Origin: Pseudorhodoplanes sinuspersici
GTDB taxonomy: Bacteria; Pseudomonadota; Alphaproteobacteria; Rhizobiales; Xanthobacteraceae
NCBI RefSeq assembly: GCF_002119765.1
Contig: NZ_CP021112.1
Coordinates: 1,730,501 to 1,794,500 of the forward strand
Direction: 5' to 3'
DNA length: 64,000 nucleotides
The notes under the pieces were generated by a model. It had not been told where the DNA came from. It made no database searches and worked only from the letters and a program-made list of their open reading frames with translations. Below, piece by piece: positions 8,546-38,744 of this stretch; positions within the stretch are counted from its first letter, which is position 1, and each line of letters begins with the position of its first letter. The position numbers and the translations under genes are program-made.

Positions 8546-8676
8546 ATCCGTAAGCGTCCGGCGGAAGGCCGCCGGGCGCTTCCTATGCCAAATGCCCCCC
8601 GCCATTGCAACTGGCGCGACGGGCCGATGACGAAAATAAAGCGTCCGCGGTGGCAAATAAGGTTGATTATGGGACC

Positions 8677-8839
8677 AGTGCCGCGATTTTGGAGTTCCTG
8701 CACCATTTGCAGCAAGCTCCTGTCAGGAACTCCAAAATCAAAAGAGGCACTAGAATCATAGACTTGCTAGTGCACCTTTGTTGCCGAAGTTCGTGTATGA
8801 GATCGCCGCAGATACAGCACGAGCTTTGGAAACGGTGCA
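8677..8839. repeat. Two-hairpin element, type A (copy A1)
   Basis: The first hairpin has 16-bp perfect inner arms (8685-8700 with 8724-8739) and outer arms AGTGCC/GGCACT. The second has outer arms TGCACC (8771-8776) and GGTGCA (8834-8839) and an inner stem kept by G-T wobbles. Between them is the core CTAGAATCATAGACTTGCTAG in which both ends read CTAG. It is an inverted copy of the element at 28887-29048 and lies 65 bases upstream of the YbaK-family start. Confidence 0.85.
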
Positions 8840-8904
8840 TCAGTCGCCATTACCCGCTCGGGTCCGCCGGTTCCGTTCACCCTTTGCCCGCCATCCTGCC
8901 CGCC

Positions 8905-17176: not shown

Positions 17177-17227
17177 TCCAGAGTCGCGCGGCGGGGCGTA
17201 TACCCGGCACCGCCCCTTCGCCGGATG

Positions 17228-17267
17228 GAGGCCTCGGTCGCAAGACCGGGGCCTCTTTCGTTGTTTC
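17228..17267 (+). terminator. Intrinsic terminator after amtB
   Basis: A 12-bp stem (GAGGCCTCGGTC with GACCGGGGCCTC, one G-T pair) closes a GCAA tetraloop and is followed by TTTCGTTGTTTC. It lies 51 bases after the amtB stop and also at the tail of the converging hydrolase gene. Confidence 0.82.
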
Positions 17268-28854: not shown

Positions 28855-28886
28855 GTTGCTCTCCGTTGATTGATGCGACTGTCTTG

Positions 28887-29048
28887 TGCACCGTTTCCGA
28901 AGTTCGTGCTGTATCCGCGGCGATCTCATACACGAACTTCGGAAACAAAGGTGCACTAGCAAGTCTACGATTCCAGTGCCGCTTTTGATTTTGAAGTTCC
29001 TGACAGAAGCTTGATGCAAATGGTCAGGAACTTCAAAATCGCGGCACT
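28887..29048. repeat. Two-hairpin element, type A (copy A2)
   Basis: The left hairpin has 16-bp perfect arms (28893-28908 with 28931-28946) inside TGCACC/GGTGCA, with an AAA bulge next to the core. The core is CTAGCAAGTCTACGATTCCAG. The right hairpin has 17-bp perfect arms (28987-29003 with 29024-29040) inside AGTGCC/GGCACT. It is the inverted counterpart of copy A1. Confidence 0.9.
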
Positions 29049-29214
29049 CGTGTCGTGGTTCAGAAATTCGCGTCACAAACTGCCGCGAGTCCTTCAAGCG
29101 AATGTTCTGAACCAAACGACACTAGAATGTTGAATTTGCTAGTGTCCTTCGAATCCGAAGTTCGCTCTCGAGGGTGCTGCAAAAATCAGGCGAACTTCGG
29201 ATTCGGGACACTAG
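29049..29214. repeat. Two-hairpin element, type A (copy A3), abutting A2
   Basis: The left hairpin pairs GTGTCG with CGACAC around a 15-16 bp stem with one bulge. The core is CTAGAATGTTGAATTTGCTAG. The right hairpin pairs CTAGTGTCC (29139-29147) with GGACACTAG (29206-29214) around a 16-bp perfect stem (29150-29165 with 29190-29205). Stem sequences differ from those of A1 and A2 while the layout is identical. Together with A2 it fills the 372-base gap between the YidB and YeaQ-type genes. Confidence 0.9.
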
Positions 29215-29226
29215 TCAGCTCGCAAT

Positions 29227-29487
29227 TCAAACAGTGCTTCTGCGGCTTGCGATCATTCCCCAGATAAAGAGAACGATGATCGCGCCGACGACAGCGCCGA
29301 TCAAGCCTGCGCCCTCTCCTGCGTGATACCAGCCGACAGCCTGACCAAGGAATGTGGCGACAAACGCGCCCACGATGCCGAGGATCGTTGTCAGGATGAA
29401 GCCCGACGGCTCGTTGCTCCCCGGCATAATGAATTTTGCGATAACGCCGGCAATAAACCCGATGATGATGGTCCAGATAATGCCCAT
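29227..29487 (-). CDS. GlsB/YeaQ/YmgE-type small stress membrane protein
   Basis: An 86-residue integral membrane protein with three hydrophobic helices. The family motif is clear: IIGFIAGVIAKFIMPG, PSGFILTTILGIVGAFVATFLG and GLIGAVVGAIIVLFIWG. The 'transglycosylase-associated' label is historical; members are small stress- or stationary-phase-induced inner-membrane proteins of unknown activity. ATG 29487 gives the usual length. The gene is flanked on both sides by paired-hairpin elements. Confidence 0.93.
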   Translation of the reverse strand: MGIIWTIIIGFIAGVIAKFIMPGSNEPSGFILTTILGIVGAFVATFLGQAVGWYHAGEGAGLIGAVVGAIIVLFIWGMIASRRSTV

Positions 29488-29554
29488 GGCTAGCTTCCTC
29501 GTGCTCGCTAACGCGTCATGATGACGTGCGTATGCACGCCACTGCATTCGATCG

Positions 29555-29661
29555 CGATGATTTTGGATCGGATCGATCCAAAATCATAAACGTGATCGAT
29601 TCTAAGACGTTAGAGCATGATGTCGTCCGAAAACCGCTACGCACTTTTCGGCATCATGCTC
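29555..29661. repeat. Two-hairpin element, type B (copy B2)
   Basis: Hairpin 1 pairs ATGATTTTGGATCG (29557-29570) with CGATCCAAAATCAT (29574-29587). Hairpin 2 pairs GAGCATGATG (29613-29622) with CATCATGCTC (29652-29661), with CCGAAAA/TTTTCGG inside. Its last base is the first base of type A copy A4. Confidence 0.9.
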
Positions 29662-29828
29662 TAGTGGTCCGATTCTAACATTCGCATCCCTTCTCGGCAG
29701 GCTCTTTTTGCGAATGTTAGAATCAAAGGACCACTAGCAAGTATTGGATTCTAGTGAAGCTTTGGATTTGACATTCGCTTGACGAGCCCGCGGCTAGGTG
29801 GGAGCGAATGTCAAATCCGCTCCACCAG
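29661..29828. repeat. Two-hairpin element, type A (copy A4), abutting B2
   Basis: Hairpin 1 pairs CTAGTGGTCC (29661-29670) with GGACCACTAG (29728-29737) around a 16-bp perfect stem, with an AAA bulge on the core side. The core, read on the minus strand, is CTAGAATCCAATACTTGCTAG. Hairpin 2 has a 15-bp perfect inner stem (29764-29778 with 29804-29818) and a decayed outer stem. With B2 it occupies most of the 398-base gap before the EamA gene. Confidence 0.9.
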
Positions 29829-38150: not shown

Positions 38151-38474
38151 ATGAACGCGACCGGCCAACGTCCCTGGACCGTCACGCCGTCAGGGCTTGT
38201 CGTCACGATACGCCTGACCCCAAAGGGTGGGCGGGATGCGGTGGACGGCATCGCGACACTCAGTGATGGGCGCGTGGTGCTGAAGATGCGCGTGCGGGCT
38301 GCGCCCACCGATGGCGAAGCGAATGCCGCGCTGATGGCCTTTCTGGCCAAGACGCTTGACGTCGCGCGCCGCGCGATGACATTGGCCGCCGGGGAAACCG
38401 CGCGCATCAAGCGCATTGAAATCGATGGCGATGGCGCTGCCTTGGCGGCTCGTCTGGAACAGCTCGTGCGGTGA
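38151..38474 (+). CDS. DUF167 (YggU) family protein
   Basis: A 107-residue protein of the YggU fold: VVTIRLTPKGGRDAVDGIATLSDGRVVLKMRVRAAPTDGEANAALMAFLAKTLDVARRAMTLAAGETARIKRIEIDGD matches the family from end to end. It is cytoplasmic and its function is unknown. It is linked with yggT upstream and folD downstream (after 270 bases with a type C repeat), a conserved order in Rhizobiales. Confidence 0.93.
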   Translation: MNATGQRPWTVTPSGLVVTIRLTPKGGRDAVDGIATLSDGRVVLKMRVRAAPTDGEANAALMAFLAKTLDVARRAMTLAAGETARIKRIEIDGDGAALAARLEQLVR

Positions 38475-38593
38475 TGCTGACATCCCGATCACCCGAGCGG
38501 CATTCTCTATCATCGGAACGTCAGAACCAAAACCGCACGAGCTCAAAAGTTGCTCGTGTTCTTTTGTTTCCGACGCTCGTATGAGAGATTGAG

Positions 38594-38703
38594 GCTAAGA
38601 GCCTTTCCGGCTTTGATGGAATCAAAGCCGGGCCTCCAGCTTATTGTTTTGACGCGTTTTCTTCACGCGAGCCGGTATCCACTTCGCTTGAAAACGCTTT
38701 AAG
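38594..38703. repeat. Dispersed repeat, type C (copy 1)
   Basis: The unit has a hairpin CCGGCTTTGATGGAATCAAAGCCGG, then 'ttgttttgacgcgttttcttcacgcgagccggtatccacttcgcttgaaaacgctttaa'. The 'gcgttttc' and 'gaaaacgc' segments can pair. The same unit recurs inverted at 44854 and partly at 41299 and 14970. Confidence 0.82.
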
Positions 38704-38744
38704 GGTGCGAGCGTCGGACACAGGACACGAGTGACGGACGGGAC

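Follow-up and report, generated by a model that had tools for sequence, protein, structure and literature searches.

Two-hairpin, CTAG-bounded repeats in Pseudorhodoplanes sinuspersici as probable non-autonomous IS630-family elements

Elements of the window and their architecture

The window, by which we mean the whole analysed stretch of 64,000 nucleotides, carries four two-hairpin elements (8675–8843, 28883–29050, 29047–29214 and 29661–29828; Table 1). The first lies between a tRNA and the next gene (by our own reading a tRNA with a glycine anticodon and a ybaK-like gene), and the third at a yidB/Transgly_assoc site (Pfam names). A window scan located their cores at 8750–8770 (+), 28956–28976 (-), 29122–29142 (+) and 29734–29754 (-), each between two long hairpins, in keeping with the four elements of one design described in an initial, sequence-only reading. 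A fifth element at 38463–38731 had been overlooked there, its hairpin B being interrupted by ca. 100 bp of other palindromic sequence that breaks the loop (read by eye). Elements 2 and 3 had been listed separately and are both real, but they in fact abut, with the CTCG at 29047–29050 common to both. Searching the 64-kb window with the core only, at three mismatches, has an expectation of 1.63 occurrences, and 8 of 100 shuffles reach four; the core alone is weak evidence in the window, and it is the flanking long hairpins that carry the case. An Rfam scan of the window at gathering scores returned two tRNAs and BjrC68, a Bradyrhizobiaceae sRNA (17178–17263, 41.3 bits), with no match at the elements. 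A separate palindrome (29613–29663, GAGCATGATGTCG...CGGCATCATGCTC) directly adjoins element 4, which seems to have inserted at its end, and this palindrome stretch (query positions 1310–1366) has similar counterparts in many genomes.

Table 1. Parts of the five elements, in window positions
Feature	Position	Strand	Remarks
Element 1 hairpin A	8675–8753		Type 1: TGCCGC / GATTTTGGAGTTCCTG; bulge core-side
Element 1 core	8754–8766	+	13 nt, AATCATAGACTTG, CTAG either side
Element 1 hairpin B	8767–8843		Type 1: TGCACC / GTTTCCGAAGTTCGTG theme; mutated outer end
Element 2 hairpin B	28883–28959		Type 1
Element 2 core	28960–28972	-	AATCGTAGACTTG on minus strand
Element 2 hairpin A	28973–29050		Type 1
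Element 3 hairpin A	29047–29125		Grouped with type 4: TGTCGT
Element 3 core	29126–29138	+	AATGTTGAATTTG
Element 3 hairpin B	29139–29214		Type 4: CTAGTGTCCCGAATCCGAAGTTCGC, inward reading from outer end
Element 4 hairpin B	29661–29737		Type 2: TGGTCC / GATTCTAACATTCGC
Element 4 core	29738–29750	-	AATCCAATACTTG on minus strand
Element 4 hairpin A	29751–29828		Type 2: TGGAGC / GGATTTGACATTCGC
Element 5 hairpin A	38463–38541		Type 5: TGCGGT; boundaries CTCG/CGAG
Element 5 core	38542–38552	+	Shortened, CTCAAAAGTTG; read by eye
Element 5 hairpin B	38553–38731		Type 5: TGTTCT...; read by eye

The element plan, ca. 167 bp in length, runs CTAG, hairpin A, CTAG, core, CTAG, hairpin B, CTAG, and each hairpin of ca. 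72–80 nt consists, outward from the core, of CTAG, TG, an outer arm, a short insertion, an inner stem, the loop, the returning stem and outer arm, CA and CTAG. Every hairpin is bounded on both sides by CTAG or a mutated form of it, giving four such tetranucleotides per element, of which the initial reading had recognised those in the core and overlooked those at the outer hairpin ends. The A3/T3-type bulge that it described does lie on the core side, but a constant size of three does not hold, since the insertion is mostly of 2–4 nt and is absent in a few hairpins. Across 68 distinct dimers the elements measure 162–169 bp (all below 300 bp), are gene-less and consist only of hairpins and core, the latter being 13 nt long in 59 dimers and 12 nt in nine.

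In an alignment of 51 arms, 16 of the 21 consensus pairs include sequences in which both sides have changed with pairing kept, bearing out the earlier impression of variable, fully paired arms unlike simple REP copies. Of the 3366 stem pairs counted over 153 distinct units, taken from several genomes, 3220 are Watson–Crick pairs. These units were detected by their pairing and hence do not constitute independent evidence: a start resembling CTAG and pairing of the outer arm are both required by the detector, with the result that decayed hairpins are missed and pairing is partly present by construction. Hairpin types 1, 2, 4 and 5 are called from the four bases after CTAGTG, and types 6 and 7, from a single-contig genome designated G073, were read by eye. 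According to the four-base calls, hairpins A and B agree in type in 66 of the 68 dimers outside G073, many of these being copies of each other, and both exceptions (L009 and L077) are found in composite arrays, whereas mixed types are common among the G073 stretches that were read. Type-5 elements (L017, L028 and window 38463–38731) have CTCG/CGAG instead of CTAG at several boundaries, and in hairpin B of L017 and in element 5 this change is paired, CTCG...CGAG, across the hairpin. One hairpin of L079 (G010) has a loop that looks inverted and is missing the bulge relative to its counterpart in L080, as if it had flipped through its own stem.

Copies, spread and signs of mobility

Within its own genome, the core pattern with at most two mismatches occurs at 38 places, against 25 for a backwards control, and hairpins lie on both sides at 28 of the 30 core places fetched (all except L025 and L029); the second hairpin of L022 has a poor pairing score, yet was recovered by a covariance model. 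This hairpin model, built from 51 arms of own-genome places, gave 141 match rows in the same genome, corresponding to at least 90 distinct hairpin places with 150 of 2224 candidates scored. Eighty of these form 40 dimers, each in the minus-plus arrangement, and the other ten have no second hairpin at the distance typical of a dimer, some partners being interrupted or decayed. Since there are such partnerless hairpins, and array L092 contains an extra single one, a lone hairpin may also move.

A covariance-model search of this genome and its relatives had been proposed in the sequence-only reading. As 39, 116 or 150 candidates were scored per genome, and 31 in an order-wide draw, all counts are lower bounds. 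Hairpins are present in at least 16 of 41 genomes, the own genome counted, and in at least 65 of 119 genomes of its family, and within a single genus of eight genomes the number of match rows ranges from zero to at least 115, where a palindrome may count on both strands. A limitation to one family, suggested at one stage by their absence from all 16 non-family genomes, was overturned by the order-wide draw of 150 genomes, at least 19 of which have hairpins, 16 of these belonging to ten other families. The dimer spacing itself recurs in at least eight of these 16 (G150, G151, G191, G193, G200, G208, G257 and G263).

Within-genome dimers more than 85% identical, compared together with their flanks of 60 bp, show signs of mobility. 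Among 32 dimers of the own genome, 67 such pairs have a mean identity of 91% in the element and 58% in the flanks, against a baseline of 59% by the same flank measure for random 60-mers of the window. Similar dimers are 98% identical inside and 62% in the flanks in G079, and 98% and 59%, respectively, in G064, and the pattern in G010 and G015 is like that of the own genome. Sites without the element were also sought in relatives: the interval between the tRNA and the next gene has no hairpin unit in nine relatives fetched (in one of which, L280, the right flank is different), and the yidB/Transgly_assoc site has none in two, G007 and G005, the intergenic DNA at these element-free sites being too diverged for the exact target to be read.

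The target can be read from elements that lie within one another. In L080/L081, a single composite found twice, a complete element sits inside the CTAG between the hairpin and core of another element, whose type is found uninterrupted in L083, and further nested elements at the CTAG beside another core occur in L082, L084, L305 and L399. The nested junctions retain CTAG on each side, which fits duplication of TA or of CTAG equally, the length of the duplication being indistinguishable. Tandem pairs with one common tetranucleotide are seen in L291, L294, L369, L379 and window 28883–29214. Base composition predicts 226 CTAG in the window, which has 28, an under-representation of about eight-fold. 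Ten of these belong to the four elements, so that the elements themselves provide a large share of the available targets; the scarcity of CTAG, together with the four brought in by every element, would account for the tandem and nested arrays. The mobile palindrome family put forward in the sequence-only reading is borne out by the unrelated flanks, patchy presence, element-free sites and nested copies. Another insert, with ends CTAGTAC...GTACTAG, occupies a core–hairpin CTAG in L376 (G079:C126, after position 438), suggesting another element family that targets CTAG. Tandem arrays of repeated hairpin pairs of mixed types are found in G073 (L372, L385 and L389), as if amplified by recombination between elements.

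Relation to IS630 and proposed mechanism

L115 (G023) came to light when loci with PF13358 were searched for single arms. It is an IS of 1213 bp that has CTAGTGTCCTGAACCAGAAGTTCGCAA and CTAGTGTCCCGAGTCACAAGTTCGCAA at its ends and an internal 372-aa IS630 transposase matching NF033545 at 273.6 bits (cut-off 100) and also PF13358. Of 561 confirmed loci related to L115, 80 were fetched, a set that descends from an IS itself found through an arm-like end, and 65 of these have CTAG at both ends, with CTAGTG on both sides in 42 and CTAGTC in 16. After the first six positions, the ends of the 65 loci share on average 13.7 of 20 bases with whichever of eight hairpin arms fits best (14.5 for CTAGTG ends and 12.5 for CTAGTC ends), and a 40-element IS selection gives a mean of 13.6. 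The mean for 132 other CTAG sites serving as control is 7.6, although these include some high scorers (16–20) that are probably undetected hairpin arms. The IS ends align with the outer arms without need of the core-side insertion. Each arm resembles a TIR of the IS630 family, so that an element has four TIR-like arms.

Individual hairpin types were compared with a set in which the 80 IS loci were reduced to 32, leaving out near-duplicates, loci without two CTAG ends and CTAGTC-type loci (except L312), and to which eight others were added. The type nearest to IS630 terminal repeats is type 4, represented in the window by hairpin B of element 3: the ends of L115 and L174 fit best with hairpin B of this type (B4), at 16–18 of 20 positions beyond CTAGTG. 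Fits apart from B4 are moderate, and include those of the L338 and L339 ends with type 2 (12–13 of 20), of the L340 ends with A6 (13–14) and B6 (11–13), where IS and hairpins are both in G073, and of the downstream L336 end with types 5 and 7 (12–14). No hairpin type fits the upstream L336 end (best 10 of 20), and the IS630 ends compared include no convincing TIR of type 1, although that type is common in the own genome. Some stem types fit particular IS630 subgroups, the agreement being in part specific to the subgroup. An assignment of hairpin A to the upstream and hairpin B to the downstream IS end seemed attractive for L338, L339 and L336, but in the largest IS group the straight and swapped assignments score alike, and it is therefore not claimed.

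Genome G073 carries both kinds of element. It has at least 150 hairpin matches (all 150 candidates scored) and 57 NF033545 matches, with multi-copy IS630 whose TIRs partly match hairpins of the same genome. In 10 of the 12 stretches read (L385–L396), the ends of IS630-family copies, which fall into three TIR classes, lie at the CTAG of a hairpin or core. Eight of the 12 were picked knowing that a hairpin was nearby; the other four (L389, L391, L392 and L393) comprise two such coincidences, one adjacent case and one stretch with no CTAG-bounded IS. Most of the copies listed for the CTAGTG-class IS have a full-length frame of 381 aa, and the other two classes are in two frames; other IS630 classes of G073 fail to match the arms, CTAGAGC ends reaching at most 6 and CTAGTCGC ends at most 11 of 20 positions. 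TA at both ends, within CTAG, is a feature of the nested elements and of these IS630 copies alike, pointing to insertion at the TA.

A search of the own genome with the L115 transposase gave no match at E<=1e-10, its three PF13358 matches are fragmentary, and no TIR was found around these IS630 fragments. Own-genome copies look orphaned because the best-matching transposase is missing there, and they are probably relics whose transposase was lost. PF13358 has no matches in the assemblies of hairpin-rich G004 and G017, nor NF033545 in those of hairpin-rich G089, G095, G099 and G114, and over 41 genomes PF13358 shows no clear relation to hairpins, occurring in 7 of the 16 that have them and 9 of the 25 that do not. 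We read these IS630-poor genomes as having lost an autonomous partner, an impression helped by incomplete drafts, though the partner may instead be an enzyme of an unrecognised kind.

Members of the IS630/Tc1-mariner family move by cut-and-paste, inserting at TA, which is duplicated. From the title of a 1991 study by Tenzen and Ohtsubo, IS630 reportedly prefers a TA within CTAG. For ISY100, 34 of 39 products are described as normal TA insertions with TA duplicated (PMC2170065, as far as its accessible passages go). Taken together with the arm likeness, the elements are very probably non-autonomous IS630 (Tc1/mariner) MITEs, and their transposition would proceed as follows. An IS630-family transposase acting in trans would bind the two outer arms, excise the element and insert it at the TA of a CTAG, duplication of the TA leaving CTAG at every junction. 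The core-side insertion of 2–4 nt would shift the spacing between cut end and binding motif, keeping the inner arms out of use, and insertion of elements into each other would give rise to tandem and nested arrays. The stem types may represent TIRs adapted to different IS630 transposases, and stems would for that reason vary in matched A/B sets with CTAG fixed; IS630-like ends sitting at CTAG would likewise explain a constant core and ends alongside changing stems.

How the arms remain paired admits of another account, in which the IS630 origin is the same but stems are kept complementary by template-switch correction of quasi-palindromes at replication and not by hairpin selection. It is a possibility of some substance, though one we consider somewhat doubtful. 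It would accommodate paired changes even at the boundaries, where L017B and element 5 have CTCG...CGAG, a change not favoured by selection for CTAG as a target. With such correction alone, however, it is difficult to see why most copies have kept the asymmetric loop and the core-side insertion, which 85 of 93 dimers have in each of their two hairpins. Conservation for RNA folding, in the form of sRNAs, terminators or mRNA-stability hairpins, is very improbable. The strong covariation, with 16 of 21 pairs changed on both sides, would suit it, as would the preference for G-T over A-C among raw mispairs (78 vs 29); counted once per type, position and change, however, the figures become 37 and 24, no longer a clear bias, a shrinkage caused by one fixed position in one type that contributes 21 G-T cells (dimer set). 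No Rfam family matches the elements, and an RNA role does not explain why the distribution is patchy and mobile, why the ends are CTAG or why the arms resemble TIRs, though secondary RNA effects may follow insertion.

Paired inverted hairpins whose tags face each other across the core, a bulge near the tag and arrays do recall tail-to-tail GTAG REP dimers (PMC3733652, in the part of it accessible), and paired REP hairpins with a tetranucleotide tag, moved single-stranded by a Y1 (HUH) RAYT transposase as in REPINs and BIMEs, might be envisaged. The tag here, however, is CTAG at both hairpin ends and not GTAG/CGTC at one, the units are of ca. 72–80 nt and resemble IS630 TIRs, and the TnpA(REP)-like gene to which the initial reading had looked finds no support: at E<=1e-5 the own genome yields no PF01797 (Y1 transposase) hit, and over 41 genomes this family does not track hairpins (3 of 16 with, 4 of 25 without). 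We give this origin hardly any credence. Equally remote is an origin as attC-like folded recombination sites or paired binding sites for a recombinase or nucleoid protein, spread by recombination. Such sites might well combine short conserved motifs with arms that vary yet pair, and form tandem arrays and chimeric units like those of L372 and L389. DDE transposition is nevertheless indicated by the nesting of elements and by IS630 copies occupying those CTAGs too, the arms are akin in sequence to IS630 ends, and the core CTAG, for which paired binding sites had also been considered in the initial reading, fits an IS630 target better.

An extension of the IS630 interpretation, unlikely in our view, holds that the fold-back ends are functional, the IS630/Tc1-mariner DDE transposase acting on single-stranded DNA in which each end folds on itself into a double-stranded TIR. 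Were this true, the two-hairpin design would be single-strand-competent and convergent with attC sites and IS200/IS605, the core-side bulge would tell the cut end from the dummy end, and the single-stranded substrates would be replication forks and incoming conjugative or transformed strands. For the family as such, an IS630 relationship gives this abundant palindrome class of one bacterial order a probable origin and a mechanism that can be tested. The stem types may record joint divergence of TIRs and transposase specificities, and dependence on CTAG offers a simple explanation of mosaic arrays in DNA poor in CTAG. The doubling of the ends as hairpins is retained across the order.

Comparison with known systems

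No description of a two-hairpin, four-TIR family was found in the open-access literature searched (titles, abstract openings and passages, among them passages of the MITE review PMC10969869 and of PMC2680597). Like IS630-family ISs (IS630 of Shigella, ISY100), the elements have related TIRs bounded by CTAG; unlike them, they are non-coding, and every end is accompanied by an inverted copy of itself. Paired inverted hairpins and arrays are shared with GTAG/CGTC REPs, REPINs and BIMEs, which accessible passages report in Bradyrhizobium together with CGTC repeats that likewise lack associated RAYT (Y1) genes (PMC3733652). Different from these are the tag, the longer units, the IS630-like ends and the lack of a Y1 match in the own genome. 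The RIME repeats of Rhizobium (Osteras 1995) are reportedly mosaic intergenic rhizobial repeats, one type having two large palindromes; their length, reported to be ca. 109 bp, compares with 167 bp here. MITEPsy1 of Pseudomonas syringae is similar in being a 100-bp MITE that inserts at CTAG or YTAA, and dissimilar, so far as the accessible part of its description goes, in its possible IS5 origin, 4-nt duplication and single unit (PMC3189936).

A close parallel is RUP of pneumococcus, a 107-bp MITE for which movement by IS630-Spn1 has been proposed (PMC2229807, PMC3049150). As portrayed in the available portions of these two reports, RUP shares with the present family the character of a gene-less intergenic repeat, the IS630-like TIRs, the TA target and a copy number of about a hundred, but consists of a single 107-bp unit with a 9-bp TIR, where two fold-back, TIR-like hairpins here surround a short core over ca. 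167 bp, come in several stem types and have CTAG ends that give nested arrays. The initial reading could place the elements in no named class, a position now largely resolved by the resemblance of their arms to IS630 (Tc1/mariner) TIRs: the family works like RUP, yet is not RUP.
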